Assembly (NCBI RefSeq): GCF_963576615.1
Contig: NC_088717.1
Location: forward strand, 29,491,213-29,555,212
DNA from: Watersipora subatra
Taxonomy: Eukaryota; Bryozoa; Gymnolaemata; Cheilostomatida; Watersiporidae
DNA length: 64,000 nucleotides
Reading direction: 5' to 3'
Below, piece after piece: positions 17,469-62,469 of this stretch (the first letter of the stretch is position 1; each line of letters begins with the position of its first letter). Below the pieces are notes generated by a model. It did no database searches. It worked only from the letters and a program-made list of their open reading frames with translations, and was not told the DNA's origin. The position numbers and the translations under genes were made by a program.

Positions 17469-20400
17469 GTAATTTGCTAGTTTGCATATATTGGAACTTC
17501 CTGTCAGTTTTCGAGTTGTCAATTATATTTTTCGTTCGTCATTTTTATGCACGCATTCTCTTGGGCATCTAAGTTTCTCAGTAAATTGGTGAATATCTCT
17601 TAGGAGAATACTAGCTAGGTACATTCATATTCTAGAGCCAGCTTAAGCGTAATAGCTATATTATAGAAAAAGATGTAGGCGTAATCAAAAAAGTTATGTT
17701 TACTTAAACAAACATTTTTGAATTACGCTATCATGCGTGTTTAGGGAGAAATGTTATGCATAACTAATCCGAATCCACAAACATTAGTGTTGAATTTGCT
17801 TTGTCATCTTAGGTTATTTTTATTATGTTCAATTTGTGCACTTTGCTTAGCTTGGGTGAACTAATTAGATTATTACTGGTTCAGGTACTCGGGAAGGTGT
17901 TAAGCTGTTGTAGGTAATACTGATATTTACCAGTAAGAGTTGCGATACGTCAGACAATTCTATAAGTCGAACAATTAAAATACACGACTAAAAACAAGTT
18001 GAAACGATAATATTGATGACAAGAGATTAAAATAGCCAATAAAAGTTACACCCTTAGTCGAACGGCCGCATGCTTGTTGCTCGGTCCTGTAAGGCTGCGA
18101 GTCTCGACAGTCAAATGAGAGTCATAATAGTCTTTAGATATATGTAGAGGCGTGGCATTTAAGAAAGTGAAGCAGAAGAGGCTCATCTGATGATGGAAAA
18201 GGTGGCTCCATAGGCAGGGTCAGTAGAGGTTCTGCAGGTGCAAGAGGAGCCTGATAGAGGCTTCACAGACAGAAGGGAGAGAGAGGCACCAAAGACAGAG
18301 GAGAGAGTAACTCCACAGGCACAGGAAATTGCCTCAGCAGGCAGGAGGAAAGAGGGAGCCTCAGCGGCCCCTTAGGAGAGAGACTGAGTCATTGGAGCTG
18401 TTCTCTTTTATAGAAGTCTCTATTAACCTGTGAGAAAGTGTTTAGGCGCTCAAGTGTTTAGGTGCTCAGGTTCTGTTCTTTATGTTGCAGAGGGTTAGCA
18501 ATCGGGTGGATTTGTCTTAAGTACATCTTACGGGAGTGTAATGGTTGGAAAGGATTAACTCCAATAGTTTTGGTCGTGTCTGGTAGATGTCTAATTTCTT
18601 TACAATGGTTTTCTGGCACATAAGTTGATGTTCTTTTCCTCACGGTTTACTTCCACTGGAGGTTTCTAATCTGCTTTTAGATGGGTATATGATGACTGTT
18701 TTTCCTGATGGTCTTCTGATGTACCAGGTGTTCTTTGCTCATTGTAATATTTCGCATCACTCAGGTGTTTAGGCATTTCTCCATTATGCTATCTGCTTTT
18801 GCTATTACTTCCATATGACAATGCTACACAAATGCGTTAGTCTCTTTAAAATTCATGTCTGCTGCTGTTGAATTTTAAAAGCATTAAATTTTAATTAGGT
18901 TTTTTCCTGGGTGAACTGAGCAGTTTAATGAAGTTGACATAATTCGCATATATCGATTCGAGACGTCTGCTAGCATTCGCCCATCTATTACTTAAATAAG
19001 ATCATTTTCATTGGCAAGTAGCTCTATAGAATTTTTTGTGTTTTACAAACGGGTAAGATTCACTTGTACACCTTACCCATTACTCCGTGTTATCCTTTAA
19101 CATTATACTAATTGACACAACTTAACTAGGGGAGATGGGGGCATATTGGGACATAGGACATATTGACACTTCACAATATTTGTTATTTGTCTTCTCTCGG
19201 TAGCAGTAATTTTTAGTCAGGTTATAGGAAATGACATCATTGGGCAGCCATATTGAAATCAAGAGCCAGAGACAAAAAGCTACAATTTGGTAAGTGAAAA
19301 CTTTTTTTGAGATATAAAAGTAAATTAGAACCTTATACTGGATATTGTGCTCAGTAAAAATGACCAGGTACAAAGCTTAGATTTTTAAATAGAGAATAAT
19401 TTAATGGTTAAGGTCTAAGTGGCTTGTATCAGACAATGTTAAAAGTTGAGAAATTTTTGTCACACAACTTTTTTGTGGTAGGTGTGCCCACGGGGCATAT
19501 TGGGACAACATAGATGGGGCATATTGGGACATGTCCCAATATGCCCCATATGCTGTTAGCACGCCTACATATTAGTTGTTTTTACAGATCATGGTTCGCA
19601 ACAGAGCCCCTACAAAGAGAAACAGACCAGATGATACTCATATCCATGACGCTGTCCAATCAGTTATAAATAAAACACTAACTCTGAGAATGGCTGCGGA
19701 GTCTGTGGGTATGACTAAATCCACCCTGGCCCGTGCTGTGGACAAGGCAAGAAAAGCTCAAGAATGTGGTGACACTGTAGCTACGTTTCAACCAAGGCAT
19801 GGACAACCTCGCATTTTCAGTGACCGTGAAGAAAGCCTATTGGTGGACTACATTATCAAAGCTTCCAAACTGCATTCTGGACTGACCAAGAAGATGGTTA
19901 GAGAATTCGCTCACGAATATGCATGCCATTTAAATAGAAAGCAACCAGAAAATTGGAAAAGAGATAACATGGCTGGTGCTGACTGGATATATGGATTTTT
20001 AAAACGACACCCTAGAATCTCTGTGAGAACACCAGAAGCGACAAGTTTGACTCGTGCGACCAGCTTTAACAAAACTAATGTCCAAATGTTCTTTAACAAT
20101 CTCGAAGAGGTTATGAAACGATACAAACTTTCTCCAAGATATATATATATATAACATGGACGAAACAGCCCTCACAACTGTCCACAAGCCCGAGAAGATT
20201 CTTGCACAGAAAAACATTAAGCAAGTAGGACTTTCAACTTCAGCAGAGAGAGGAACTCTTGTGACCCTAGTAGGTTGTATCAATGCACAAGGTGGGTCGA
20301 TTCCTCCATTTATGATTTGGCCAAGAGTGCACTTTAAAGAGTCGATGTTAAATGGGACACCACCTGAGTCTGCAGGTACAGCACACCCGACTGGCTGGAT

Positions 20401-23400
20401 GAACCAGGATATATTCCTGCAGTGGCTAGCTCATTTTGTTAACTGCACTCGGTGTTCTAAGGAAAAACCTGTTTTGCTGTTAATGGACAACCACATAAGC
20501 CACATCTCCATTGCTGTGATCAACTATGCTAAAGAGAATGGAGTGATATTGTTAACTTTCCCTCCTCACTGCAGCCACAAACTACAGCCTTTAGATAGGA
20601 GTGTATATGGGCCATTGAAGAAGTATTATAATGGGAGTTGCAGTAGATGGATGATAAATCACCCAGGACGTACCATATCAATTCATGATATAGGTAGTCT
20701 TATTGGTGATGCATATCCAAAGGCATTTACACCCTCCAACATCACATCTGGATTTCGTGTAACTGGTATATCCCCATACAATTCTGATGTGTTTGGGGAG
20801 GATGAATTTCTTCCATCCAGTGTCACTGACCGACCCTTAGCAAATGAAGCCTTCAGTCCTCGTCATTCACCTGGTGCTCTACCGAATAGCTCTTATGAAG
20901 ATTGCCATCAACTCTCTACATGTGCATCTACTAGCTCTGTTGTAGCAAATGAAAAGACATGCACCCCACATGAACTTAGACCATTTAAAAAAGCACCCCC
21001 ACGTAAGCTAGGTCAAGCTAGAAAGAGAGCCAAATCTGAGATTTTAACCAATACTCCTGTAAAGGAAAGAATTGAGACAGAATACACTGCTAGAAAAAAG
21101 CTATCCAAGAAACGAAAACCATACCAGATTATTCATGAAGAGTCCTCTGTCAGTGAGGATGAAGAGGCACTAGTCAAAAAGCTGGCAGAAGAAAGCTCAG
21201 GCGATGAGCTGCAACTCGCAGATGAGAGTGACATGGAACCCACGGATAGCATCAAGCCTGGTGACTATGTTTTAGTCAAGTTTGAAAGAAAGAAAGATGT
21301 TAGGCCTAAACACTTTGCTGGTCTAGTCACTAGCACTGATGACTCTATCATTACAGTGTCATTCTTTAAAACAGTCCAGGGCAGTACTAATGTGACATTC
21401 ATTAAGGCTGAGGTAGACGATATTGCAGATGTTGACAAGTGTGATATTGTCATGGTGCTCCCCTCTCCCAATATTACTGGTGGCACTAGCAGACTATCAG
21501 AACGAATGTTATTTGCTGTGGATCTGACTAAGTTTTTTATGAACTAACCTCATGTAAGCAGTTCACATAGATATGGTTTGGGTTTTATGCAAAATATATA
21601 GTCATTAATTATCATGATGCGACCCCATTGTTTTTGTATAGTCCCAAATTGCCCCGACCTTTGTCCCAATACGCCCCACCATTGGGGCGTATTAGGACAG
21701 GTGACACATTTTTTTCAAACGCTTGTTGCACATTCTCTGTTCAAACAACAATGTTTTTAATTGTCTACAAGATAAAGCACATGTTATTATAACCTATTGC
21801 AGCATCAAATCCAGCCGAAGTAAAATTCTCTCTTTTTGCAGTCATAAAATTAAGAAAGTGTCCCAATATGCCCCCATCTCCCCCTACTTCTCAAGCTGAT
21901 ACGCTATTAATTAGTATTAGAAAAATATGTTTCCAATGAATTGGCATTTTTGACATCTGATGCTCAGTTTTTTGTGAGGCATATATTGGGAGCATTTAAC
22001 TTTTATGTAGGAACAGCTGACCCGGAGGTGGCCAAAAATTACCTTGAGGCCTGCAAGGGAAACCTAAACAGCGCCATATCCATGCACATAGATAGCTCAG
22101 TGGTAGATTCCATAGGCCCAAGGTGAGCCACTCAGTCTACACATAGATAGCGCAGAGGTAGATTCCATAGGCCCAAGGTGAGCCACTCAATCTACACATA
22201 GATAGCTCAGAGGTAGATTCTATAGGCACAAAGTGAGCCACTCAGTCTACTCATAGATAGCTCAGAGGTAGATTCCATAGGCCCAAGGTGAGCCACTCAG
22301 TCTACACATAGATAGCTCAGAGGTAGATTCCATAGGCCCAAGGTGAGCCACTCAGTCTACACATAGACAGCTCAGAGGTAGATTCCATAGGCCCAAAGTA
22401 ACTCCAGTCTAACTCTAGGTAAGGTAGTGTAACTCATCTAACCCGCAATGGATTTTGTTGTGCACAGGTTCAATAATTTTACGTGTATCAGAATTTGGAA
22501 CCCTTGTTGCAATGGTCTTAGTCTGAATTTCTCCTTCATTGAGTAATATAACAGAAGTTCCAATACGCCATTAGCGTCATAACGGCTTTAATATCTCTAT
22601 TGATAACCTGCACCTGACCATGTTTATACCAGATCTTCGGAAGGAACATCAACTGATCTTGATGCAGTCCGTGCACCTATACCGCAAAAACAGGAAATTC
22701 TTGTTGAGCATGATGGGTACCTGCTTGCCAATCAACGCAAACGGAAGAGGACTTCCAATCCTAATTCAGTTTTTGACAAATTCAGAGATTTTCAAGCAGA
22801 AGCTAGTGAGTTTTACTATAGAATTTTTTCCATAAATGTTAATTCTATTTAAAAACTATAACTGTGGTGAGACTTTATGTAAACTGTTGACCTCAGCTCA
22901 TCTTTGCCCTCCTACATATATTTGTTTCCTATCTTTCTTGATCCATTAGTTTTGCTATTCTTGCCATATGCTTGCCATATGCTTGCAACATGCTTGCCAT
23001 ATGCTTGCCACATGCATGCCACATGCTTGCCATATGCTTGCCATTTGCTTGCTATATGCTTGCCATATGCTTGCCACATGCTAGCCGTATGCTTGCCGTA
23101 TGCTTGCCATATGCTTGCCACGTGCTTGCCATATGCTTGCCTTATGCTTGCCATATGCTTGCCATATGCTTGCCATATGCTTGCCACATGCTTGCCATAT
23201 GCTTGCCATATGCTTGCCATATTCTTGCCACATGCTTGCCACATGCTTGCCACATGCTTGCCATATCATTTCAAAACTCAAATAAAATGAAGCTATTATT
23301 TATGTTTTCATTACTGTTGAAGAGTTGTTGGTTGATCTTAGAACTTACTGTATTTAAGCTGTATAGTATACCTACAAAGGAAGGATTTTACAGCTATTTT

Positions 23401-26400
23401 AGGATATGTTGATTGTAAAACAAGTATGGGAAGTTGATCATTTGTTTTTACTTTTATTAGATTATAGAATTATCAGATACTTTTGGATATTTAGTAGGTA
23501 ACAAATAGCATGCTTGCAATGGCATATTTAGTAGGTAACCAATACCAATGCATTGCTTTGTCAAAATTTTAATGTCACTTTAGATGAAATAGCAATAACA
23601 TTTTGTAATATATAACTGTCTATGTTATTATCTGAGGAAATGTTATAATAGTAGATTGTACATCAGCAGGAAACACTATTCATTATGTTGTTTTTAGGGG
23701 AACAGGAAAGTTTGCTGAAGAATGGAGCAAATCAGGTGGCACTACCTGCCCATCTTATTAGACTTGAAGATCTGTTTAGACCGCCTCTTGATATTATCTA
23801 TCATGGATCTCTTATCTCTGTGAGTTGATATAATCTATCATGGATCACACATCTCCGTGAGTTGATATTATCTATCATGGATCACACATCTCCGTGAGTT
23901 GATATTATCTATCATTGTTCACACATCTCCGTGAGTTGATATTATCTATCATGGATCACACATCTCCGTGAGTTGATATTATCTATCATGGATCACACAT
24001 CTCCGTGAGTTGATACTATCTATCATGGATCACACATCTCCGTGAGTTGATATTATCTATCATGTATCACACATCTCCGTGAGTTGATATTATCTATCAT
24101 GTATCACACATCTCCGTGAGTTGATATTATCTATTATGTATCACACATCTCTGTGAGTTGATATTATCTATCATGTATCACACATCTCCGTGAGTTGATA
24201 TTATCTATTATGTATCACACATATCCGTGAGTTGATATCATCTATCATGGATCACACATCTCTGTGAGTTGATATTATTTATCATGGATCACACATCTCC
24301 GTGAGTTGATATTATCTATCATGTATCACACATCTCCGTGAGTTGATATTATCTATCACGGTTCACACATCTCCGTGAGTTGATATCATTTATCATGGAT
24401 CACACATCTCTGTGAGTTGATATCATCTATCATGGATCACACATCTCCGTGAGTTGATATCATCTATCATGTATCACACATCTCCGTGAGTTGATATTAT
24501 CTATCACGGTTCACACATCTCCGTGAGTTGATATCATCCATCATGGATCACTCATCTCCGTGAGTTGATATCATCTATCATGTATCACACATTTCCGTGA
24601 GTTGATATTATCTATCATGGATCACACATCTCTGTGAGTTGATATTATCTATCATGGATCACACATCTCCGTGAGTTGATATTATCTATCATGGATCACA
24701 CATCTCTGTGAGTTGATATTATCTATCATGGTTCACACATCTCCGTGAGTTGATATCATCTATCATGGATCACACATCTCCGTGAGTTGATATTATCTAT
24801 CATGGATCACACATCTCTGTGAGTTGATATTATCTATCATGTATCACACATCTCCGTGAGTTGATATTATCTATCATGTATCACACATCTCCGTGAGTTG
24901 ATATTATCTATCATGTATCACACATCTCCGTGAGTTGATATTATCTATTATGTATCACACATCTCCGTGAGTTGATATTATCTATCACGTATCACACATC
25001 TCCGTGAGTTGATATTATCTATTATGTATCACACATCTCCGTGAGTTGATATTATCTATCATGTATCACACATCTCCGTGAGTTGATATTATCTATTATG
25101 TATCACACATCTCCGTGAGTTGATATCATCTATCATGGATCACACATCTCTGTGAGTTGATATTATCTATCATGGATCACACATCTCCGTGAGTTGATAT
25201 TATCTATCATGGTTCACACATCTCCGTGAGTTGATATCATCTATCATGGATCACACATCTCCGTGAGTTGATATCATCTATCATGTATCACACATCTCCG
25301 TGAGTTGATATTATCTATTATGTATCACACATCTCCGTGAGTTGATATTATCTATCATGTATCACACATCTCCGTGAGTTGATATTATCTATTATGTATC
25401 ACACATATCCGTGAGTTGATATCATCTATCATGGATCACACATCTCTGTGAGTTGATATTATCTATCATGGATCACACATCTCCGTGAGTTGATATTATC
25501 TATCATGGTTCACACATCTCCGTGAGTTGATATCATCTATCATAGATCACACATCTCCGTGAGTTGATATCACCTATCATGTATCACACATCTCTGTGAG
25601 TTGATATTATCTATCATGTATCACACATCTCCGTGAGTTGATATTATCTATCATGTATCACACATCTCCGTGAGTTGATATTATCTATCATGGATCACTC
25701 ATCTCCGTGAGTTGATATTATCTATCATGGATCACACATCTCTGTGAGTTGATATTATCTATCATGTATCACACATCTCCGTGAGTTGATATTATCTATC
25801 ATGTATCACACATCTCCGTGAGTTGATATTATCTATCATGGTTCACACATCTCCGTGAGTTGATATTATCTATAATGTATCACACATCTCCGTGAGTTGA
25901 TATCATCCATCATGGATCACTCATCTCCGTGAGTTGATATCATCTATCATGTATCACACATCTCCGTGAGTTGATATTATCTATCATGGATCACACATCT
26001 CTGTGAGTTGATATTATCTATCATGTATCACACATCTCCGTGAGTTGATATTATCTATTATGTATCACACATCTCCGTGAGTTGATATTATCTATTATGT
26101 ATCACACATCTCTGTGAGTTGATATTATCTATCATGTATCACACATCTCCGTGAGTTGATATCTATTATGTATCACACATATCCGTGAGTTGATATCATC
26201 TATCATGGATCACACATCTCTGTGAGTTGATATTATTTATCATGGATCACACATCTCCGTGAGTTGATATTATCTATCATGTATCACACATCTCCGTGAG
26301 TTGATATTATCTATCACGGTTCACACATCTCCGTGAGTTGATATCATTTATCATGGATCACACATCTCTGTGAGTTGATATCATCTATCATGGATCACAC

Positions 26401-29400
26401 ATCTCCGTGAGTTGATATTATCTATCATGTATCACACATCTCCGTGAGTTGATATTATCTATCACGGTTCACACATCTCCGTGAGTTGATATCATCCATC
26501 ATGGATCACTCATCTCCGTGAGTTGATATCATCTATCATGTATCACACATCTCCGTGAGTTGATATTATCTATCATGGATCACACATCTCTGTGAGTTGA
26601 TATTATCTATCATGAATCACTCATCTCCGTGAGTTGATATCATCTATCATGAATCACTCATCTCTATGAGTTACTATTATTTATAATGAATCACTCATCT
26701 CTTGAGTCTGATATTAGGTACAGGTCATATTTAAATTAAGATGTCTTTCACAAAAAGTTCCACCGATCGCGTTTTCGAGTTATTATAACCAATTCAAATT
26801 CATTTTCAGTGAGCAAACTCACTGCAGTTTAACCGTAAATCTCATGTACCACTGAGCAAAGAGATAATCTTTGACACGCTTGTGGGATTTGGGAGCTTCT
26901 AGTTGACCTTGGTTGATCTGATTGCTGTAGGCACAGGCCAAAGGAAAAGCGGAGAAGAAATGGGTGCTGGTAAACGTGCAAAATACTACTGAGTTTTCTT
27001 GTCAGGTCCTAAATCGGGACATCTGGAAGAATTTGTCCATTCGTGAGATTGTAACCAATCACTTTATTCTCTGGCAGGTATTTTGTGGTGATGCATTTAG
27101 TTGTTTCCCAAAACACACTTTTAAGGCTGGTTCACACTATATCGCAGTATTTCGGCCTTGATGCCACAATACTTTGGCAATCGTCGATGATAACAATGTT
27201 CCTATTATCACAAACCCATCCCCGTTTGTATCAGGAAATACTCCATGACATTTATCTTTTTAAACTTTCGCGAAGAAACCTCTTTGTATGCGGTAATCAA
27301 AAACTAGTCCCGCAGCGACTATCATAAACAAATATGAATAGATCACGGTATCCCCGACCGTGAATTGCCATCGCCGGAATGGTTATCATTTAAAAGGCGA
27401 TTGTCGATGCTCGGCGAAGCATCGGGAAAGTTTGACCGCTACAAACTTTTTCGACGTGTCCACGATGCTTAGTCGATGACATCAATTCACGGTTCACATA
27501 ATCGACGACCAACGCCGAAATGACAACGCCGAGATACGGCAATATAATGTGAACTAGCCTCAAGGTTGCTAGTCATAATGTAGAGTTTTTTGTAACACTT
27601 TCATTAGTTCATACCTCAGTTATTAAATGTTTTTTTACTCGTTGAGATTATTTTTTTTGGTGCTGCAGGGTTTTTATTTAAATGCATATATTAAATTTTT
27701 TATGAAACTTCTCAGTTGTACATGTCATCTTTATTCTGTTATACACTTGTATTATTATTATTATTCTATTATATGTTCATTCTCTTATATTATTAGATTA
27801 GTTTACACAGAAGTTTAGTAGATCTCATCAGGATGTATCGGTATTTATCATTTGCGATTGTTTTCGATGTTTGAGGTGATCCGACTGTCAGGATGTTTCC
27901 CTAATGATAGAAAATACCGATACTTTTCTTATAAGCTCATCTTTAAAACGCCATAAAAGTATTATATTATTCTGTAATAGCTGTGCTACCCGGCATTGCC
28001 CGGGTAATAAAATTTTTTTTGGACAGAAAATGGATTTGTATTTAACATATAATATAACATTTGTCATTCTAACTTTCAAACTACATATCATGAGAAAAGT
28101 GTTTTGCGTAATTGAAGTAAATTTAGAGAGAAAATAAAAACAACTGTAAAGGTTGTTAAGACTTTGTCAAACAACTTTTAAACTTCATATCATGAGAAAA
28201 ATGTTTCGTGCAGGTCAAATAAATTTGAAAAAATAAAACGGCTATAAAAAGGTTAAGATGTAAATGTGAAATTATTAGCCAGTAATCGCTAAATTAAGTC
28301 TGTTTTGCAACGATTACAATACAAGATGATTCTGTAATGATACAATTAAAACGAACTGAGAAAACAAAATAAAAATCCTGAATATGTAGAATTAATAACA
28401 ATTCTTGCATAGAAGTGTGTCTATAAAAAAGTTACTGTTCCACCAGAAGCTATCCATCAAAACTTTGAATTCGGCGATACTGGTACCTTTCGACATTAGT
28501 ACAAATGTAAAAATGAAATATTGTACTGTCTTTCTGTTAATGGAACGGTGAGAGAATGTAGAGGCTTTTTCCACGATGAGGATATAATTGTCTGCGTGAT
28601 AAGAGTTGACCTTGACCCCAGATATAGTAATCGAACCTTATAAAAAATATTTCTTAACAGGGGCATCGTAACGCGTCGCTGCATCGGTAAAATCGTCAGC
28701 GTGCACTATAGCTATAGCTGGAGTGACAGACAGATCCACGTGCATATACTTTGGGAAATATATATATAGATTATTAGTTTACCATTCTATACCCTAAATG
28801 CACTCTTTAAATTGGTTTCAACTTAGTTACAAAATAACTGCTATGAACAGCTTTCATTGTTTGTTCATAGGTAATCAGACACGCTGATTCCAATTTTCTA
28901 CTCAAAATAAAGATTGGCTCCATTTTTGTTTTTAAAGGCTTTTGTACAGTAGTACAGGTGTCGCAATCTGCACAACAAGCCCCGCTCATAAATATGTGAC
29001 ATAAGCTAGCTTGTTAGGCACGGAAGTTGGGGATGTTAAGTCCGATCTAAAATTATAGAGATGGGTGTCTTAAAATTCGTTATTCTCTGAATTCAGCCCT
29101 CAAAATAATCTCAGTCTTTTCTGAAAGAGAGATAAGCTATTTAACATTGCTTGTAGCTTGTTACAGGATGTTTAATCGGCTGAACGCCGAGAAAAATGCT
29201 CAAAAAGTGCGATAACAATGCTAGCTTGTGATAAAATCGATATGGTTTAAATGATGAAGTGAGGTACAGTACTTTTCGGACTATTAGCTGCTACTTTTTT
29301 TTGACGAATTGAGCCATGCGGCTTATATAAGGGTGCGGCTATTCTGTGGTTTTTTCTTTCACCGCTAGGGCGCATTAACCAGAATTTTTGGGTAGTGCGC

Positions 29401-32400
29401 CTCTAGCGGTGAGAGAAAATATGAAACGATGCCTGACGGTCCTGTTTCGTTAGGCGCTGGGTTAAAAAGCATCGGTAAATACGAAACATTGCCGTTAGGC
29501 ACTGTTCCGTTTTAAACAGCAAACCTGCTGCCGCGTTAAAAAGCACCATCCTGAGTTCTGCGGTCTATACAAAGGTATGTATTGTTTTATTATCGTTTTT
29601 TTTAAATAAAGTAGATGCGGCTTATATGGGGGTGCGGTTTATAATCTGAAAAGTACGGTAATAATAGCTGTTTCTCTCAGAACTATTATGCTATCAGGGC
29701 TAAGCTTTGGTTTCCACCTCATTTACTCATGTGCATTGGCTAAAGTGTGTGCAAGCTTTGATGTTTTCATCTGCCTTTCGGTGATCAGCTCCTTGCTGAC
29801 ACACTTTGCTGACACACCTTGCTGTCACACTTTAAAACCAAGTATTTCAGCAAGGTGCAGCTCATTCTTTTGTATATCATGGCGCAAGTGCCTTCCTCTT
29901 ATCTTTTCTCATGAAACGCGTACCTGTTCTAAACATAAATGTAATTGTTCACAGTGATACCCAATCTTTCTACAGGTGTATCATGACAGTGTTGAGGGTC
30001 AAAAGTATATGCAATTTTACCCGGTAACAACATGGCCGTATGTTGCCATTGTGCACCCTGTCACCGCTGAGCTCCTCGAGTCCTGGAGTTCTCTGACATT
30101 AAGAAGTTTTCAGAAGGCAAGTTCCTAGACTTACAGTGTATGTAGTTTATGCATAGATAATAGCTGTGCTACCGGCGTTGCCCGAGTAATAAGAAAGTTT
30201 TTGGACAGAAAATTGATTTGTATTTACCATATAACAATATTTGCCATTCTAACTTTCAAACTACATATCATGAGAGAAGTGTTTTGTGTAGTAGAAATGA
30301 ATTAAGAGAAAATAAAAACAACTGTAAAGGTTTCAAACAACTGTAAGTTTAAAATTTTATACCTTGAAATAAATTAGAACGAAAAATAAAAATGTAAAGG
30401 TGTTTAAATGTAAACGTGAACTCATTAGAGAGTAATGGCTAAATATAGTCTATTTCGTTACAATTAAATAATAAAATAAAAAAAAAATTATTTGGTATGC
30501 AATTATATGATTTCAGTTCAGTGTTGGCAGGCGAAAATTGGCATGCGAAAATATCGTAGGCTATAGACGTACATAAAGTGGTATAGAAACCCATAGTATT
30601 TATCTAATGCAATCACCTCCTGGTAAAAATCATCATCATTAAAAATAGTACCAAAATACTATATTAACCTTAGTAATTATAAGTACCTACAATGACTTTT
30701 GTGCATTTTGCGGTTATGATCTGCAGGATATAACATTACAATGTACTATGTGGAGAGTTCTTACCTTTGAGACAGACGTGTAACATAAACGCTGAATATA
30801 ACTTAATTTAATTCACTAAACACATACTTGAAGGAAGCTTTACTATGTATTTTATTAAACTTTAAAGAGAAATTTTATTATTTACATTAGCGAATTGTGT
30901 TTATTATAACGAATGCGGATAGCTTGCCATGGCGAGTTCAATGACTTGTATCTTTTAATAAGGTATATAATCGGTACACTAATGGCCAAATTTCAAGTTC
31001 GAGATAAATTATTGCTGATTTCGTGGGCCGAACAAATTTTCCCTAACGAAAAAAAGACGAAGAAGCATTGTGTTGCATATAATTAGATCCCAAAATATTT
31101 TAATATAATTGTCCGCGGGAGAAGAATTGGCCTTGATCCTAGATATAATAATTGAACTTATGAAAAAAATTTCTTAACAGCGGCATCGTAACGTGTGGCC
31201 GCATCGGTAAAATAATCAGCGTGTGCTATAGCCGGAATCCATAGCCGGAATGACAGACATACTTTGAGATATATATATATATATATAGATGACAGTTAGT
31301 TGTAGCTCAATGCAGCCTCGTCTGGCATCAAATGCTTTCCCTTCACTTATGCTACTTTATATCTCATAACAAGAAGCACAAAAATATATAATTATAGATA
31401 TACGTGTATAATTACATGTAGGCCTATATATAAATGTATATGTATACATGTAGTGATGATAATAATGTTAGCACCACCGTGCATTGTGAGATGCTTTAAT
31501 ACTGACTTAGGAATTGTTCAGTGCTTATGTAATGAGCACCCTAAACTATACATCAAATGAAAGCTTAGGATGCCGAGAATAAACTACCGAAACTACTTTG
31601 GCAGATATAGCTTCGATATAGCTTTGATTTGGCAGATATAGCTTTGATATAACGAGATTAGCTATAGATGCATGAACAATATAAGACATACAATTATGAG
31701 CCACAACACATCAACGCTAAGCGTAACACCAACAGGAGAGAACACCCAAGAATGTAATTGCTGCCAACAAACTTGCCTGCAAGAAGGAAAATGCTTAACT
31801 CGATCACTTGTATACTAGGTAGCATTGACCACTGCAGACACTACACAAACTAACACCCATGTTGGGCTCACAGAAGGCACATTTAAGACACGCTACACCA
31901 ACCTGTTGATAAGGGACTATCAACAGAGCTATCAAAACATATATGGCAATTAAAAGACAATAACATTAATTTCAGCATGGATTGGAAAGTTTTACGAACT
32001 GCATCCTCTTTTAATAATATCTCCGGGAGTTGTGAGCTTTGTCTTTGGGAAAAGTTTTTTTATAGTTTACAAACCACATTTATCATCTAACAAAAGAAGT
32101 GAAATGCTTTATAAGCCTAGGCATGCCACAAAGTTTTTATTAAACTATTGTGCCACTTAACAACATTTCCTAATTATATAGCTTTAACACCATGATTTTA
32201 CAAGCTATATCTGCAAGCTAGGCCTATATCCGTAACTCTTAGTAATCCCTTCTAATCATTTCAACCATCTGACTATGTATACCTTACATAGAGCATATTC
32301 TATTCGGCAAATTTTATCTGATGAGTGCAGTCGGTCTAACTGTACAAAACTAAATAGTAATAAAATGTTGCCAACCTTTTAGTTCTACGGTTTAATACAT

Positions 32401-38400: not shown

Positions 38401-40637
38401 CAGTCTAATCACAAAAATTTCAGTAGATTGCATATTTGGAGTTGTTTTACCGTATGAAAGACAACTCTCAATAAAACTTGCTTTACGTAAATCTGTTCCC
38501 GAACACAGGTAATATAGCTAGTAGATTATCATAGGAAGCACTGAGAGTTGTTGAAGCTATCAATTATAATTTTTTGCTTGAGGTAGTGAGGCATCTTGGC
38601 TGTGAGGCACCTTGGCTGTGAGGCACCCTGCTTTCATAATTGTCACGAGAATATTTCATTTGAGTGTTTTTAGCACACACGCCCAGCAGTGGATGCTAGT
38701 GAGGAGTCACAACTGGAGGCAGCTCTCCAGGCATCGTTAGAGGAAGTGAAGCGGAAGGAGACACAGGAGCAATTGTTGGATGGTGACAGCTCTAGCAGTT
38801 CGAATATGAAGAGTGACTCTGATGATGAGGTTTGTTCTTTAGTACCATAACTAGTGTTGTTGTTCGATTGTTATATTTAATAAATTAATATATAATATAA
38901 ATATAATTATTATTGTCAATTGTATATCATATTGTCGCCAATTGTATGTACGGTTTTGCTAGTAATGTGTTGTTGTAGATTGTATCCATTTGTAGACAGC
39001 TGTGGACAAGAAGCGCTTGACATCTGGCTTCCCTACTACAGAGTCGATGGAGAGCTGTCTACCATCCATTCCTAGTACTCCACCTTCCAACAAAGATGCC
39101 AGGATCGACGGCTTCTGGACAGACCATATTTCGCAGGAAGGTAAACGCACCAAATACATGTATTTATGTCAGTTATCTTTCTTTCAAACATGTAACGGAG
39201 CATATTTAGATGTGGGGTGAGGAACGAAACAAACCATGGATGATCTGCGGAACAAACTGCTGCTACTTATCGCTTCATTGTTATGATTACATGATTACCT
39301 TGACATTTGTAAGGGGCAGTTTGACAGTATGGATTTGCTGGTATTTATAGGTACAGACATAAGTATTCTATTCAAAAAACCAGATATGTCTAGGTGTCAA
39401 TGGGAAGTCAAGTCGAAGTCTACTATCAAGGTACGCTTCATCCGCTCTTTTGTTCGACTCTCTTCCCAGTTTTGATTTTTGTTTTACATGCACCACTTGA
39501 AAACTGAAGTTGTGTGGTAGACTATTTATTCACAGGCTCCATCGCAGTTTGGCTGCAGCTGTTTCATACTGAGCTAAGATTACAAAATCTAGAGGCTAAT
39601 TGAAGAACAACTGGCAGCATTTCACTTTCTATTACAGCCATCCAACCAAGCTCTTTTCATAGTTACTGTTGTCTCCGCATATTTGTAGAATCTTCAACAG
39701 TTTTGAACTGAAATAGTGATCTAAGTGAAATAGTGATCTGTTCCGGTTTATGCAATGAATATATAATATTATGGTAAAGAATATGTTTGTGGAATAGTAT
39801 ACTCTGATATTAATTGTCAGCAAACCTGTGTGCTGTTGGAGCGGATGACCTACTCATCTTTGATATATTTATATGTAAGTAATGACCTATGATATATCTA
39901 TATGTAAGTACTGACCTATGATATGTCTACATGTAAGTAATGACCTATGATATATCTATATGTAAGTACTGACCTATGATATATCTATATGTAAGTACTG
40001 ACCTATGATATATCTATATGTAAGTACTGACCTATGATATATCTATATGTAAGTACTGACCTATGATATATCTATATGTAAGTAATGACCTATGATATAT
40101 TTATATGTAAGTACTGACCTATGATATATTTATATGTAAGTAATGACCTTTGATATATCTATATGTAAGTACTGACCTATGATATGTCTATATGTAAGTA
40201 CTGACCTTCATGCCAAGGTTACTGTTAATGTTTTAATAATTGCTGTTATCATTTTACCAGTTTGTTTTTACAACAGTTTATGGCACAACAGAACTATGTC
40301 ATCAGCTTTTACTTTCCTTTGTTTAGTTTTTTTAAACGTAAAACAGGCTTCTTGATCCTTGTTTATTAGCATTTGTGTGGCTCTGCCAGTCCGCAGTTCT
40401 GCTTTCTTGCGCTATATCCAGATTGGTCGTTATTCAGGGGTCATCCTAGTTCGACCAATAATGATTGTTCTTTGCTAGGCTCTTATTCTCTATGTGGAAA
40501 GCTTGGGATTCAAGCGTGATGCATATGAAGTCATGGCCAACTTTCCTAGTCGAAAAATTTCCAGACTGCCTCTCGACAAAACATTGGAAGAGTGTAAATT
40601 TCAAAAGCAGGAAACCTTCTATATACAGAAGATGTGA
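17429..40637 (+). CDS. UBXN7: UBX domain-containing protein 7 (complete gene)
   Basis: Eleven exons: 17429-17468, 22011-22122, 22633-22805, 23698-23819, 26931-27077, 29976-30116, 32721-32807, 38674-38829, 38996-39140, 39351-39430, 40479-40637. They join with consistent phase at every junction to 1362 nt, 453 aa; human UBXN7 is about 489 aa. Domains: UBA (about aa 1-45), UAS thioredoxin-like (about 125-260), UIM (about 283-300), UBX (about 376-453). The family are adaptors of the AAA-ATPase p97/VCP: UBA binds ubiquitin, UIM binds neddylated cullins, UBX binds the p97 N domain. The first ATG follows an in-frame TGA at 17411. All introns are GT-AG except intron 6 (GC-AG). The UBX p97-contact loop reads NFPSRK where vertebrate UBXN7 has FPR. 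Introns hold the Tigger-like element, splice-site minisatellites and Helitrons. Confidence 0.93.
19494..19550. repeat. Left subterminal repeats of the transposon
   Basis: GGGGCATATTGGGAC occurs at about 19494 and 19516, and inverted at about 19534. The last two form a perfect palindrome (17-bp arms around AT). The same word is the core of the TIR. Probable transposase-binding sites, or promoter operators just upstream of the ORF. Confidence 0.75.
19591..21547 (+). pseudogene. Pogo/Tigger-like transposase, one frameshift
   Basis: The first part (19591-20154) has a psq-type helix-turn-helix (about aa 15-60) and a CENP-B-type HTH (about aa 70-145, including [13 protein letters not shown]). The second part (20156-21547, another frame) has the DDE domain: [14 protein letters not shown] and [13 protein letters not shown] give the three expected acidic positions. 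A Lys/Arg-rich stretch, an acidic stretch and a C-terminal GDYVLVKF domain follow. The break lies in a (TA)n run at 20139-20153: removing two TA units gives RYIYN directly before MDET, as in active relatives. Start ATG 19591 is chosen; the frame is open upstream only through a TTG. Conceptual length is about 650 aa. All three catalytic acids remain. Confidence 0.9.
21640..21700. repeat. Right subterminal repeats of the transposon
   Basis: GTCCCAAATTGCCCC, GTCCCAATACGCCCC and inverted GGGGCGTATTAGGAC lie together between the transposase stop and the right TIR, mirroring the left subterminal set. Confidence 0.75.
22011..22122 (+). CDS. UBXN7: UBXN7 exon 2 (UBA)
   Basis: Acceptor TTTTATGTAG. 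Encodes [20 protein letters not shown], the UBA core (compare LEACNNNLEMA in vertebrates). Donor CCCAAG|GTGAGC, phase 2. The last 38 nt and the donor are the first copy of a 55-bp tandem array. Confidence 0.92.
22085..22405 (+). repeat. 55-bp minisatellite containing exon-2 end and 5' splice site
   Basis: About 5.8 copies, period 55 (starts 22085, 22140, 22195, 22250, 22305, 22360). The first copy is exon 2 plus donor. Later copies are almost identical and most keep CCCAAGGTGAGCCACTC. Reading past the true donor meets TGA at once (CCA AGG TGA), so use of a distal donor would truncate the protein. Confidence 0.93.
22633..22805 (+). CDS. UBXN7: UBXN7 exon 3 (linker)
   Basis: Acceptor TTTATACCAG, donor GCTA|GTGAGT, phases 2 in and 1 out. 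It contains [14 protein letters not shown], the most conserved linker motif of UBXN7, and [11 protein letters not shown]. Confidence 0.93.
22963..23268. repeat. 11-bp minisatellite (CATATGCTTGC), about 27 copies
   Basis: In intron 3, starting about 160 bp after the donor. CCATATGCTTG and CCACATGCTTG variants alternate. It produces open frames on both strands with no coding meaning. Confidence 0.93.
23698..23819 (+). CDS. UBXN7: UBXN7 exon 4 (start of UAS)
   Basis: Acceptor TGTTTTTAG. Encodes [20 protein letters not shown], matching LADLFRPPIDLMHKG of the vertebrate protein. Donor TTATCTCT|GTGAGT, phase 0. Its last 27 nt are the founder copy of a 37-bp array. Confidence 0.93.
23793..26716 (+). 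repeat. 37-bp minisatellite of exon-4 end plus 5' splice site, about 79 copies
   Basis: The unit is GTGAGTTGATATTATCTATC followed by ATGGATCACACATCTCC. The first copy is the true exon-4 end and donor (23793-23825). Nearly every unit keeps CTCCGTGAGTTG, a U1-complementary donor word. Variants such as ATGGATC/ATGTATC, CTCC/CTCT and ATTATC/ATCATC recur as higher-order blocks. Extending exon 4 to any later donor meets TGA immediately (GTG AGT TGA). Confidence 0.95.
26931..27077 (+). CDS. UBXN7: UBXN7 exon 5 (UAS)
   Basis: Acceptor TTGCTGTAG, donor TGGCAG|GTATTT, phase 0 at both ends. Encodes [20 protein letters not shown] and later NHFILWQ, matching the thioredoxin-like UAS core (WLMINIQN, CLNRDVW, EHFIFWQ). 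Confidence 0.95.
27124..27561. mobile_element. MITE with long imperfect TIRs
   Basis: The left end AGGCTGGTTCACACTATAT and the right end ATATAATGTGAACTAGCCT are inverted, with further internal inverted blocks (TTTCGGC, TCGTCGAT, TCACGGT). About 438 bp, non-coding, in UBXN7 intron 5. The superfamily is uncertain. Confidence 0.75.
27977..28770 (-). mobile_element. Non-autonomous Helitron, minus orientation
   Basis: The 3' end (minus sense) shows the hairpin ACCCGGGCAATGCCGGGT about 11 nt before a CTAT-type terminus at about 27977. The 5' end is TCTATATATATATTTCCC at 28770, followed by TGTCTGTCACTCC. This matches Helitron architecture and other copies in the window. About 790 bp, no helicase. 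Confidence 0.75.
29275..29660. mobile_element. DNA element with ACTTTTCGGACTATTA termini
   Basis: The left end TACAGTACTTTTCGGACTAT and the right end (inverse) TACCGTACTTTTCAGATTAT are TIR-like. GCGGCTTATAT and GGGTGCGG blocks sit near each end. Related left-end sequence occurs inside the Helitrons at 33305 and 36250. Family not named; non-coding, in UBXN7 intron 5. Confidence 0.65.
29976..30116 (+). CDS. UBXN7: UBXN7 exon 6 (UAS)
   Basis: Acceptor TTTCTACAG. Encodes [17 protein letters not shown], almost identical in pattern to VYHDSEEGQRYIQFY. The donor is CAGAAG|GCAAGT, a canonical GC donor. No GT donor nearby keeps the phase-0 junction to GAC CTT at 32721. Confidence 0.93.
30169..31287 (-). 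mobile_element. Helitron, longer non-autonomous copy, minus orientation
   Basis: The 3' hairpin (CGGGCAACGCCGG) is at about 30180 and the 5' terminus TCTATATATATATATATA at 31287, with CTGTCATTCCGGC inside. Internal sequence (30640-30800) recurs at 58880-59060 and 62990-63200. It starts about 50 bp downstream of the GC donor of UBXN7 exon 6. The rest of intron 6 (31288-32526) shows no further clear element. Confidence 0.75.
32527..32621. repeat. 95-bp near-perfect palindrome
   Basis: The 47-bp arms surround one central base (32574), with one mismatch. The centre is GTAAGCTTCAAC-A-GTTGAAGCTTAC. It lies 100 bp upstream of UBXN7 exon 7. Structurally like the 127-bp palindrome at 2708, but unrelated in sequence. 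Confidence 0.92.
32721..32807 (+). CDS. UBXN7: UBXN7 exon 7 (end of UAS)
   Basis: Acceptor CTTCTTTTCAG, donor GTCAAG|GTTAGC, phase 0 at both ends. Encodes [18 protein letters not shown], corresponding to the last UAS helix (DVTSFLDQVTGFLGEHG region). Confidence 0.85.
32870..33072. repeat. 13-bp minisatellite (CTAGCTTCACCTA), about 15 copies
   Basis: It begins about 60 bp after the exon-7 donor. CTAGCTACACCTA and CTAGCTTCACCTA variants are mixed. Confidence 0.9.
33078..33252 (+). mobile_element. 3' end of a Helitron, plus orientation
   Basis: This matches the complement of the 27977 and 30169 3' regions. It ends with hairpin ACCCGGGCAACGCCGGGT, an 11-nt spacer and GTTAG at 33252. The 5' part is missing. 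It abuts the TC start of the next Helitron with no intervening base. Confidence 0.8.
34862..35002 (+). pseudogene. Helitron (PIF1-like) helicase C-terminal remnant
   Basis: The frame reads [20 protein letters not shown] and continues to VVYPQVLH and TGA at 35000-35002. SPCFSHxQLYVACSxVG followed by a ...VVYP...VL end is the C-terminal signature of PIF1-family helicases encoded by Helitrons. Nothing upstream is intact. Confidence 0.8.
35580..35865. repeat. GATTGCGAGGC-type minisatellite
   Basis: Degenerate 10-15-bp units (GCGATTGATTGCGAG, GCGATTGGTTGCGAG) lie between two copies of the Helitron 3' end. Open frames on both strands are by-products. Confidence 0.85.
36186..38521 (+). mobile_element. 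Degenerate Helitron with helicase N-terminal remnant
   Basis: Starts TCTACTATATAAACGGC immediately after the CTAG of the previous element and ends AATATAGCTAG at 38521, followed by T. The body shares 36600-37500 with the preceding Helitron at high identity. The 3' 300 bp matches 35150-35470. Confidence 0.8.
37630..37980 (+). pseudogene. Helitron protein N-terminal repeat remnant
   Basis: The frame contains [20 protein letters not shown] and a second [14 protein letters not shown] copy, resembling the Arg/Glu/Ala-rich N-terminal repeats of invertebrate Helitron/PIF1-like proteins, then [14 protein letters not shown]. Two TGA codons interrupt it. It supports the Helitron assignment together with the C-terminal remnant in the neighbour. 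Confidence 0.5.
38674..38829 (+). CDS. UBXN7: UBXN7 exon 8 (UIM)
   Basis: Acceptor GTGTTTTTAG, donor GATGAG|GTTTGT, phase 0 at both ends. Encodes [20 protein letters not shown]: a ubiquitin-interacting motif with acidic start, Ala and Ser at the key positions (compare DASEDSQLEAAIRASLQET). An acidic Ser-rich tail follows. Confidence 0.95.
38996..39140 (+). CDS. UBXN7: UBXN7 exon 9 (linker before UBX)
   Basis: Acceptor CCATTTGTAG, donor CAGGAAG|GTAAAC, phase 0 in and 1 out. It is Pro/Ser-rich ([20 protein letters not shown]) without a known motif, as expected for the variable linker. Confidence 0.8.
39351..39430 (+). CDS. UBXN7: UBXN7 exon 10 (start of UBX)
   Basis: Acceptor GTATTTATAG, donor ATCAAG|GTACGC, phase 1 in and 0 out. 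Encodes [20 protein letters not shown], aligned with the first UBX beta strands, though divergent from vertebrate LMLRYPDGKREQITL. Confidence 0.75.
39821..39874 (+). CDS. UBXN7: Possible alternative 18-codon UBXN7 exon
   Basis: Acceptor TAATTGTCAG and donor TTATAT|GTAAGT bracket 54 open nucleotides, phase 0 at both ends ([18 protein letters not shown]). Including it would insert 18 residues in the UBX beta-grasp between exons 10 and 11. No homologue is known to me; it may be a cryptic exon. Its donor is the first unit of the next array. Confidence 0.3.
39863..40208 (+). repeat. 29-bp minisatellite with GTAAGT in every copy, about 12 units
   Basis: The unit is GTAAGTACTGACC followed by TATGATATATCTATAT. 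Every copy has a perfect GTAAGT donor word. It starts at the end of the possible alternative exon in UBXN7 intron 10. Confidence 0.93.
40479..40637 (+). CDS. UBXN7: UBXN7 exon 11 (UBX C-terminus, stop)
   Basis: Acceptor TCTTTGCTAG, phase 0. Encodes [40 protein letters not shown] and ends YIQKM-TGA (40635-40637). It aligns along its whole length with the end of vertebrate UBXN7. The p97-binding loop is FPS-R rather than FPR-R. Confidence 0.95.
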   Translation, partial: ALILYVESLGFKRDAYEVMANFPSRKISRLPLDKTLEECKFQKQETFYIQKM

Positions 40638-55985: not shown

Positions 55986-58161
55986 TTCTCATCCCAGACT
56001 TATATATCCCTATGTATATTCTTTTCAAAGACGTGCTGCTTATTTTACTTACGGTAGTAAGAAACTAGTTTTCGGTGTGGGCAATGATATACAGCCCAAG
56101 GAAAGGTGACAGACATAATGTGGGCTGGGCTTTTGGGAGGCTGTATATCGTTAGTGTGGGTAGCGGCGGAACTGTGCTGATACAAAGACCTTGTACTACA
56201 TAGTTTGCTTGACAGAATTACCGTAGACCGTTAGAATTGGTAGTTGGTACTCAAATGTTTACACAGCATTTGGAGAAAATGAGTATGACAAATTTTCAAT
56301 TTTCGTTATTTGAGGCCTTTGAAACATTCATAATAATGCATCTGTAGCTGGATTTAAAAATTTATTTCAGCCAACATGAGCAAATACAAAATAAGATATA
56401 TGCCAGTAGAGCCGCGTAGCACTAGACTTTTATCGCAAATAGCCGATGTGAATACGAGATATATTGACAGATAAATACCGCGTGACATCATTTTGGGCCA
56501 GTCTGGGCATGTTCTTTTGGCCTGAGCGTTTTAAGGCGATCAGATTTTTTCGATTTAAATCTTCAAATATCTCGGCAATGAGATCGCCTAACACAACAAA
56601 CAACATATCAACTGATAGAGAAAAAAATGCTTTCTTTTAAGATCAACTCAAATTTGACGCAACCACATCTTTAAATGAGCTCCAAAAAGGAGTTTGAAGT
56701 GAGGATCTAGTGAGACTTTTTCAGTCAAGTTCCAAAGAGAACATGCATGTAAAGCCTTGGGAATAATTGCATGAGTGGGAATCTTTTTTGCTGTTTGACA
56801 GCTCATTCCTGAACACAAAAACGGCTTTAACATGATCATTTTTGTATGCACCGATTTAACGCTGTTGCTAATCTGTTTCTTAAATTCTAGACCCTTATCT
56901 ACCCTGATTCCATGTACTTTTGTGGAGTCTACAATTTTAATGTTCTGGTTTCCCATGACTGGGAGTTGAAGATGACCATAGAAAACTACTAATTTTATTC
57001 TTTGGTAGTTAATTTTTAATTGCCATTTTGTCATCCATTCTTGGATAATAGTGCAATTTTTGCTACATGCGTCTTGAATCTCTGATGACGAATGATCTGA
57101 CATCAGTATGGTACAATCGTGAGAAAATTGCAAACCAGTGCCTTCTACTTGTAGTAGCATATGTATGTATATAATGAAAAGCAATGGAGACAAAACACTG
57201 CCCTGTGGAAGTCCTATTGTACATTTTTGTGGTATGTGTATATAGTTGTTTACCTTCAATTGAATATTTCTTGTGGTGAGAAATGATTCAGCGGTCCTCA
57301 AGAAGGCACCAGAGACCCCAAGGACAGCTAATCTAGACATCATCCCTTGATGCCATACAGTATCAAAGGCCTTTTGAAGGTCTCAGAAAATGGCTGCAGT
57401 GTGTTCCTTCTTTTTAAAGCATTTTTGTGTTTCTGATATTAGTTGAAGAAGGTACATCAATGTTTCTCTGCTTTTTTCGGAAGTCAAATTGTGAGTTTGG
57501 TAATAATATATTATTTTCTATGTTACCTCTTAGTTTTTGTCCTAGAATCCTTTCTAGTGTTTTTCCCCACATGGGAACTGATGGTTAAGGGACGGCATGA
57601 TCCTACATCAGTGTAGTCTACTTTGCTAGTTTTCCTAAGGAATATTACCAAGTTTGACTTGTCCCATGGCCATATTTGTGTGTTGAGAACTGCGTTGAAT
57701 AAGCAGTGTAAAGCTATGAGAAGAAATGGACTCGATTGTTTTAGCATCCTTGGGTGAATGCCATTGCAGTCTGCACTTTTTCTTGATGATTTCAGCTTTC
57801 CCAGAGCAAGTTCTATCTCTGCCGTTACGTGTTCATTAAGTGAGACAGATTTCTCTACATTTTCAGCTAGAATAGCTGGATTTGTTTTTGGTGGAAATGG
57901 CATTGCGTTCATATTTAGGTGACCACCTCCAATCATATGGTCAAAGAGATATTTTGCCTTGCTTTCATCACTGTGTAGAATATTGTCATGGTTATCTTTT
58001 AAGTCACCTATTAAGCGATCTTCCTGGTGATAGAAAACCTTCTTGAATGTTTTCCAAAATTTGGAATTGTCTGCTGAGTTTAGTTCAGTAGATTGTTTTT
58101 CAATGTACTCACTTTTAGCTTTGTTCAGTTCGAGATTGAATTGCTCCTTGAGAAAATCCAT

Positions 58162-59467: not shown

Positions 59468-59598
59468 TACAGCGCTATAAATTATCATTAGCTATCATAA
59501 GAATTAGGAAAACGCAGTGTGGCTGGGACAAAGTCTTCGGAGCAGCGGAAATAAATTAGGAGAGCAAATGTTGATGTGAAATAAATGGCAAGTATTAA

Positions 59599-62228
59599 AA
59601 CTACGAAACAGATGATGTTGTAATGATACAATTGATACAAACTGAGAAACAGATGATGTTGTGATGATACAATTGATACAAACTACGAAACAGATGATGT
59701 TGTAATGATACAATTGATACAAACTGAGAAACAGATGATGTTGTAATGATACAATTGATACAAACTGAGAAACAGATGATGTTGTAATGATACAATTGAT
59801 ACAAACTGAGAAACAGATGATGTTGTAATGATACAATTGATACAAACTGAGAAACAGATGATGTTGTAATGATACAATTGATACAAACTGAGAAACAGAT
59901 GATGTTGTAATGATACAATTGATACAAACTGAGAAACAGATGATGTTGTAATGATACAATTGATACAAACTGAGAAACAGATGATGTTGTGATGATACAA
60001 TTGATACAAACTGAGAAACAGATGATGTTGTAATGATACAATTGATACAAACTGAGAAACAGATGATGTTGTAATGATACAATTGATACAAACTGAGAAA
60101 CAGATGATGTTGTAATGATACAATTGATACAAACTGAGAAACAGATGATGTTGTGATGATACAATTGATACAAACTGAGAAACAGATGATGTTGTAATGA
60201 TACAATTGATACAAACTGAGAAACAGATGATGTTGTAATGATACAATTGATACAAACTGAGAAACAGATGATGTTGTAATGATACAATTGATACAAACTG
60301 AGAAACAGATGATGTTGTAATGATACAATTGATACAAACTGAGAAACAGATGATGTTGTAATGATACAATTGATACAAACTAGGATACAGATGATGTTGT
60401 AATGATACAATTGATACAAACTGAGAAACAGATGATGTTGTAATGATACAATTGATACAAACTGAGAAACAGATGATGTTGTAATGATACAATTGATACA
60501 AACTGAGAAACAGATGATGTTGTAATGATACAATTGATACAAACTAGGAAACAGATGATGTTGTAATGATACAATTGATACAAACTGAGAAACAGATGAT
60601 GTTGTAATGATACAATTGATACAAACTGAGAAACAGATGATGTTGTAATGATACAATTGATACAAACTGAGAAACAGATGATGTTGTAATGATACAATTG
60701 ATACAAACTGAGAAACAGATGTTGTTGTAATGATACAATTGATACAAACTGAGAAACAGATGATGTTGTAATGATACAATTGATACAAACTGAGAAACAG
60801 ATGATATTGTGATGATACAATTGATACAAACTGAGAAACAGATGATGTTGTAATGATACAATTGATACAAACTGAGAAACAGATGATGTTGTAATGATAC
60901 AATTGATACAAACTGAGAAACAGATGATGTTGTAATGATACAATTGATACAAACTGAGAAACAGATGATGTTGTAATGATACAATTGATACAAACTGAGA
61001 AACAGATGATGTTGTGATGATACAATTGATACAAACTGAGAAACAGATGATGTTGTAATGATACAATTGATACAAACTGAGAAACAGATGATGTTGTAAT
61101 GATACAATTGATACAAACTGAGAAACAGATGATGTTGTAATGATACAATTGATACAAACTGAGAAACAGATGATGTTGTAATGATACAATTGATACAAAC
61201 TGAGAAACAGATGATGTTGTAATGATACAATTGATACAAACTGAGAAACAGATGATGTTGTGATGATACAATTGATACAAACTGAGAAACAGATGATGTT
61301 GTAATGATACAATTGATACAAACTGAGAAACAGATGATGTTGTAATGATACAATTGATACAAACTGAGAAACAGATGATGTTGTAATGATACAATTGATA
61401 CAAACTGAGAAACAGATGATGTTGTAATGATACAATTGATACAAACTGAGAAACAGATGATGTTGTAATGATACAATTGATACAAACTGAGAAACAGATG
61501 ATGTTGTAATGATACAATTGATACAAACTGAGAAACAGATGATGTTGTAATGATACAATTGATACAAACTGAGAAACAGATGATGTTGTAATGATACAAT
61601 TGATACAAACTGAGAAACAGATGATGTTGTAATGATACAATTGATACAAACTAGGAAACAGATGATGTTGTAATGATACAATTGATACAAACTGAGAAAC
61701 AGATGATGTTGTAATGATACAATTGATACAAACTAGGAAACAGATGATGTTGTAATGATACAATTGATACAAACTGAGAAACAGATGATGTTGTAATGAT
61801 ACAATTGATACAAACTAGGAAACAGATGATGTTGTAATGATACAATTGATACAAACTGAGAAACAGATGATGTTGTAATGATACAATTGATACAAACTGA
61901 GAAACAGATGATGTTGTAATGATACAATTGATACAAACTGAGAAACAGATGATGTTGTAATGATACAATTGATACAAACTAGGAAACAGATGATGTTGTA
62001 ATGATACAATTGATACAAACTGAGAAACAGATGATGTTGTAATGATACAATTGATACAAACTGAGAAACAGATGATGTTGTAATGATACAATTGATACAA
62101 ACTGAGAAACAGATGATGTTGTAATGATACAATTGATACAAACTAGGAAACAGATGATGTTGTAATGATACAATTGATACAAACTAGGAAACAGATGATG
62201 TTGTAATGATACAATTGATACAAACTGA
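59599..62228. repeat. 41-bp minisatellite, about 64 copies
   Basis: The unit is AAACTGAGAAACAGATGATG followed by TTGTAATGATACAATTGATAC. Copies are nearly identical; variants are CTAGGAAAC for CTGAGAAAC and GTGATG for GTAATG. All three minus frames lack stops, which explains ORFs up to 723 codons; no coding is claimed. Related single-copy sequence exists in Helitrons (28322-28366 and 63650-63690: GATGATT..TAATGATAC..ACTGAGAAAAC), so the array probably grew inside one. Confidence 0.95.
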
Positions 62229-62469
62229 GAAAATCCAACAAAATCGTTATTTCGTGGTAATCAGTACAATTGCCAAATTTCCATTTCAAAATAATCTATT
62301 GTTGATCTCCTTTTGCCGAAAAAAAATTAGCCCTAATACGGCGAGGACGAAAAAGCCTCGCGTTTCATAGAGGTAAAATATTTCGTAGTTTAAATTAATA
62401 TGTCATTTTGAGGTAAAACGGAAAAGGATGTATACTTTAAGTAGTAAGAGCGAGCAGCTGATGGGAAGA

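Follow-up and report, generated by a model that had tools for sequence, protein, structure and literature searches.

What are 79 tandem copies of an exon end, 5' splice site included, doing in a single intron, and how did they come to be there? The question is raised by a gene of the UBXN7 type in the bryozoan Watersipora subatra. It lies in a stretch of 64,000 nucleotides (NC_088717.1, positions 29,491,213 to 29,555,212), which we call the window and to which coordinates refer unless another contig is given. We believe the array is quite probably what has been called a 'mirage' in amphioxus, a minisatellite that began as a tandem duplication of an exon end with its 5' splice site (donor), grew to its present size inside the intron and is tolerated there.

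The founder junction and its copies

The predicted protein has a UBA_4 domain (PF14555, E 7e-7) and a Thioredoxin_7 domain (PF13899, E 1.4e-11). When the first donor is joined to the next exon, 74 residues align without a gap to human UBXN7 (2dlx, E 3.2e-22), and the alignment crosses the junction. For this reason we take the exonic copy to be ancestral and the first donor to yield the normal protein. Exons 2 to 5 form a single frame through the junctions 22122/22633, 22805/23698 and 23819/26931. The exon numbering is relative, since it is counted without exon 1, and the later exons were located by tblastn with a human UBXN7 query, as well as by reading the sequence. One exon of the gene (29976-30116) has an apparent GC donor, CAGAAG/GCAAGT, which is putative; here and below a slash within sequence marks the junction.

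Tandem Repeats Finder (TRF) describes the array as having a period of 37 bp, 79.2 copies, 93% matches and a score of 4890. Split unit by unit it has 79 copies, 77 of them exactly 37 bp long; copy 65 has 34 bp and the final copy is degenerate. Copy 1 occupies 23788-23824 in the TRF register, with 32 exonic and 5 intronic nucleotides around the junction at 23819/23820. It reads TTGATATTATCTATCATGGATCTCTTATCTCT/GTGAG there, inside a coding exon, and the later copies read ...ATCACACATCTCC/GTGAGTTG.... GTGAG is preceded by C in 60 of the 77 full-length copies and by T in the other 17, and the word GTGAGT occurs 77 times in 23788-26740. The array is a tandem repeat of minisatellite size, its unit contains an authentic boundary and its copies contain a splice signal, which are three of the marks of a mirage. 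The original prediction recognized the type of gene, the real junction as founder copy, the run of donor words and the growth of a minisatellite out of a splice junction, and the data bear it out on each of these. It was also right about the copy number (about 79) and the end of the array, and it placed the start at 23793, which is 5 bp late.

The edges of the array diverge most from the consensus, copy 1 by 4 edits, copy 78 by 5 and copy 79 by 8. Similarity peaks between copies 53 units apart, whose mean distance is 1.17; at the remaining lags listed between 1 and 59 it is about 2.0 to 3.1. Furthermore, copies 13-18 reappear as 66-71. Both observations point to duplication of a block within the array. 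Both the diverged edges and the block recurring at 53 units fit growth by duplication behind the first donor. Tandem arrays are often mis-sized, so one could argue that the copy number is wrong or that the array was expanded in assembly. We find this very hard to believe because 28 different kinds of unit follow one another along the array in an order that is not trivial and includes a recurring block, and many arrays of this kind are found throughout the assembly.

The 37-bp unit is not an introner-like dispersed element, because the 14-bp junction word ATCTC[CT]GTGAGTTG is found at just 9 places outside the window in the 783.7-Mb assembly, compared to 73 within the array (82 in all).

The same gene holds a second minisatellite that spans a donor, with a 55-bp unit. 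The original prediction overlooked this array, as well as the published amphioxus mirages. In the UBXN7-type gene 2 of the 9 donors located (exons 2-10) and 0 of the 9 acceptors (exons 3-11) lie in arrays. This second array bears on another possibility, that the order was the reverse and an intronic minisatellite came first, with the donor later shifted upstream into its first copy. The 37-bp register by itself is silent on which copy came first. However, the exonic copy encodes residues that match human UBXN7 without a gap on both sides of the junction, the 55-bp array also begins within a conserved UBA exon, and a DNMT1 exon discussed below is arranged likewise. We therefore think the reverse order very unlikely.

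Growth from the exon end would run as follows. In a genome rich in minisatellites, a segment across the exon end and 5' splice site would have been duplicated in tandem, and it would have reached 79 copies within the intron through slippage or unequal exchange. Each new copy would be added behind the original exon end, with the first donor staying in place. Splicing from that donor to the next exon would excise the entire array, leaving the mRNA unchanged and the array free to grow. Growth would be tolerated because the copies accrue behind an unchanged first donor. We infer that splicing uses the first donor and that the array is near neutral; it is probably harmless, with the first donor still usable.

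What the later donors would do

We extended the exon by 1, 2, 5, 20 or 70 units, and each of these five extensions reads ...HGSLISVS followed by a stop. The result is the same for any number of units because the stop sits in the first added unit. This agrees with the original prediction that later donors read GTG AGT TGA. A one-unit extension at the 55-bp array reads ...IGPR and stops immediately. Use of any later donor would thus be expected to give a truncated protein or nonsense-mediated decay of the message.

It is tempting to see a regulatory switch here, in which the tandem donors capture some of the splicing, the stop-bearing extensions lower UBXN7 output and the copy number sets the level. 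All the later donors tested stop within three codons, as does the first extension at the 55-bp array. Paired with the 5' end of U1, the array donors match the founder in strength (-5.8 or -5.5 against -5.5 kcal/mol), and the donor is nearly unchanged in the unit (77 of 79 copies). However, introns in general often bring a stop soon after a donor that is left unspliced. The sameness of the donor block is within chance as well: of 18 variant types, 1 maps to the 12 positions on the donor side, and an equally quiet run appears in 19% of shuffles (p = 0.19, not significant). Unrelated arrays at the exon ends of other genes look alike. We consider a switch unlikely, and the poison-exon switch and other functions suggested by the original prediction find no support, given that unrelated units form similar arrays at other exon ends of this genome.

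The same prediction proposed a sink for the U1 small nuclear ribonucleoprotein, and a local U1 platform, for example one shielding intronic polyadenylation sites, would be a variant of this idea. There are 77 consecutive GTGAGT words, and each array donor pairs with the 5' end of U1 better than about 97.5% of random 12-mers from the window. The pairing is weak all the same, six base pairs at -5.5 to -5.8 kcal/mol (64 positions), when the donor of the UBA exon reaches -9.6 and a perfect site -14.5 kcal/mol. Since the pairing is as weak as the founder's and the sameness of the donors is within chance, there is no sign of selection for U1 binding, or for better pairing. Animal cells contain a very large pool of U1, which a single intron is hardly able to titrate. 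The sink is unsupported and we give it very little credence.

Boundary arrays at other exon ends

If the array in the UBXN7-type gene is a product of repeat growth, is it alone? We inspected the first 9 arrays listed for the donor word AGGTRAGT (L015-L023). One of them (L018, C1:1457400-1463600, minus strand) repeats the end of a DNMT1 exon, VVIDDVK/GTGAGT, as a 25-bp unit in 6.5 copies, and 38 residues of this exon align without a gap to 3pt9 (E 3.6e-15). Another, L019, begins where an open frame ends, although the frame is without a Pfam or PDB match. We rejected L021, which begins some 50-60 bp past its exon end, and L015, L016, L017, L020 and L023, where no exon is evident upstream; L022 is ambiguous.

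These arrays were found by their donor word, so we also sampled 60 exons irrespective of arrays. Forty are kinase exons, hand-picked from 142 matches with their sequence unseen; they are stop-free, mostly short frames, and some fitting ones were skipped. The other 20 are DEAD-box exons, the first ones without a stop and with an open frame no longer than 160 amino acids. Exon boundaries were set by eye, and just where an array adjoined. Donor-spanning arrays are found at 3 of the 60 exons (95% interval 1.0-13.9%) and an acceptor-spanning array at 1 of 60 (L071). All of these come from the kinase exons; 0 of the 20 DEAD-box exons has a spanning array. A poor array shortly before its exon (L080) was left out of the acceptor count, and L038 was rejected as an exon-end array because it begins 30 bp past the donor. 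The spanning arrays are listed in Table 1, with kinase names given by resemblance.

Table 1. Junction arrays, and exons and intron of the UBXN7-type gene that they adjoin
Feature	Location	Strand	Description
UBA-like exon	21953..22122	+	Approximate start; end copied in 55-bp array; PF14555, tblastn, frame
55-bp minisatellite	22085..22396	+	5.7 copies, donor-spanning; copy 1 holds junction CCCAAG/GTGAGC at 22122
Exon between the 55-bp and 37-bp arrays	22633..22805	+	UBXN7-type; tblastn, frame
Exon 4 of the original prediction	23698..23819	+	UBXN7-type; last 32 nt are copy 1; in-frame model, gap-free 2dlx match over junction
37-bp minisatellite	23788..26716	+	79 copies; copy 1 spans exon-intron junction
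Intron	23820..26930	+	3,111 bp long, array share about 93%; ends in acceptor TGCTGTAG; in-frame model
Next exon	26931..27077	+	Thioredoxin_7/UAS part; donor GGCAG/GTATTT; PF13899, 2dlx
L051			MAP3K-like exon (presumed), donor-spanning, 111 bp x 2.7
L054			DCLK-like exon (presumed), donor-spanning, units of 33-64 bp in TRF rows
L055	C3:66857907-66858690	-	NLK-like exon end (presumed), donor-spanning, 32 bp x 12.1
L037			Kinase sample; array starting exactly at first intron base, 45 bp x 7
L071	C4:7418419-7419103	-	GSK3-like exon start (presumed), acceptor-spanning, 48 bp x 2.6; last copy is the real acceptor

The occurrence of unrelated units in similar arrays at other exon ends suggests that they are a general by-product of repeat growth. 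Two points weigh against calling the UBXN7-type array harmless. Its 77 equal competitor donors downstream could well give some mis-splicing. Furthermore, the later copies printed for L055 read CAG/ATTGGT and have lost the donor GT, unlike those of the UBXN7-type array, as if competition mattered there.

Two other arrays should be recorded. At L013 (C3:64744065-64747250), positions 1-889 form a 37-bp array whose every unit contains ACA/GTGAGTTG. A UBX-domain exon lies downstream of it, and the array's 5' end lies beyond the locus. In the window, the array at 39861-40207 (29 bp x 12, with TATGTAAGTA in each unit) is mid-intron and was rejected as a junction-spanning case.

Are donors hot spots for arrays? 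Eleven evenly placed 10-kb stretches hold 25 arrays (TRF, period at least 9, length at least 60), which cover 17.5% of the 110 kb, and the figure for the window is 15.8%. With 1,404 bp of unit lengths per 110 kb, random seeding would lead us to expect 0.77 spanned donors among the 60 exons, so 3 is a weak excess (binomial p = 0.042; p = 0.0145 for the 40 kinase exons alone). Donors and acceptors do not differ significantly in this sample (3 spanned donors and 1 spanned acceptor, each out of 60; Fisher p = 0.62). The cases are too few to claim donors as hot spots, and this is not established.

Genome-wide word counts lead to the same place. We counted three words in a row with gaps of 4-34, on both strands, and compared each word to its reversal; single large arrays make up the bulk of the counts. 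The donor word AGGTRAGT gives 5462 triplets against 587 and the related AAGGTRAG, with gaps of 14-44, gives 3774 against 340. The control AGTGRAGT gives 1791 against 2002, the acceptor word TTTGCAGR 166 against 320, and CAGGTAAGT 395 against 75, with nearly all the places listed for the last sitting in one array. The comparison that weakens a donor-specific enrichment most is AGGARTGT, which has the composition of the donor word and gives 3384 against 697, or 62% of the donor-word matches. Among the matches listed for the initial 3.48 Mb of C1 we count by eye 9 arrays for AGGTRAGT, 2 each for AGTGRAGT and AGGARTGT, and 0 for TTTGCAGR. Among the matches listed, AGTGRAGT reaches 8 arrays within 30.4 Mb, and AGGARTGT about 17 within 51.3 Mb; the initial few Mb thus look array-rich for these control words too. 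Ranking six-mers over 62 array units (which include the window's own arrays and L010, overlapping the 37-bp array) is unremarkable: GTGAGT, present in 6 arrays, ties with rank 20 of 1101, and GTAAGT, present in 3, with rank 128. The excess of donor words is large over some control words and not all, and we do not regard a donor-specific enrichment of minisatellites as established genome-wide.

The window has other repeats as well. A 41-bp array of 64 copies lies at 59598-62232, and although 41 is no multiple of three its minus-strand frames run for as many as 737 codons without a stop. Transposon remains are found at 19576-21544 (a Tc5-type DNA-binding domain, PF03221, then a 476-codon frame) and at 56651-57382 (reverse transcriptase, PF00078, minus strand).

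It is important to realize what would follow if such arrays were general. It is possible, though we would not yet bet on it, that junction-spanning minisatellites are a standing class at several per cent of this genome's exon ends. Directly behind the genuine donor, introns would then routinely carry tens of unbroken copies of it. The 5' splice site would therefore have to be chosen by position (the donor nearest the exon's own acceptor, or the first transcribed) and not by donor sequence, and introns would lengthen by copying their own exon ends. The recurrence at other exon ends suggests that boundary minisatellites may be a common route of intron lengthening. In animal genomes rich in repeats they may also be a systematic trap for the prediction of genes and for copy-number variation. 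In any case, 77 near-identical tandem donors with the same local context in one intron are a natural experiment on 5' splice site choice.

Comparison with known systems

Mirages were reportedly introduced by Canestro et al. in 2002, and the minisatellite of human IFI6 (6-16) is said to have been described by Turri et al. in 1995. In amphioxus, tandem copies of exon-intron boundaries, of either type, are described from Adh3 and the globin genes BflGb6 and BflGb9 (PMC3087553), and TnC and PGBD5 have since been added (PMC3902484). The passages of these papers that we rely on present mirages as unstable in length and as not disturbing regular splicing (PMC3087553, PMC3902484). In the literature searched, as far as its text was available to us, boundary minisatellites are known from this handful of lancelet genes, and there is no genome-wide survey of them.

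As far as those passages describe them, amphioxus mirages resemble the bryozoan arrays in their minisatellite-like boundary copies, in having the authentic boundary at one edge and in the splice signals that the copies contain. Both types of boundary are affected in both animals, with L071 as the acceptor case here. The BflGb6 haplotypes have 6 and 3 units (PMC3087553), compared to 79 copies here. Judging by the same passages, two arrays on donors of one gene also set the bryozoan case apart, and its likeness to mirages is one of sequence structure in one assembly.

In human IFI6, downstream units of the minisatellite reportedly act as donors, with several mRNA species as the outcome (PMC4526556). 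IFI6 is similar in that a minisatellite multiplies a splice donor beside its exon. It differs, on that account, in that the later donors of the UBXN7-type array give a stop and none of the five extensions keeps the frame open. A paper on earthworm metallothionein describes intronic minisatellites, and the portion of it considered here does not state that they span a junction. Finally, the tandem duplication of AG/GT sites is cited as a model of intron gain (in the relevant part of PMC3087553). That model, as cited there, also involves a tandem duplication with a donor-like junction; unlike what it describes, no new intron was made here. The array in the UBXN7-type gene is a new and very long member of the known kind of boundary minisatellite, and what it did was lengthen an existing intron.

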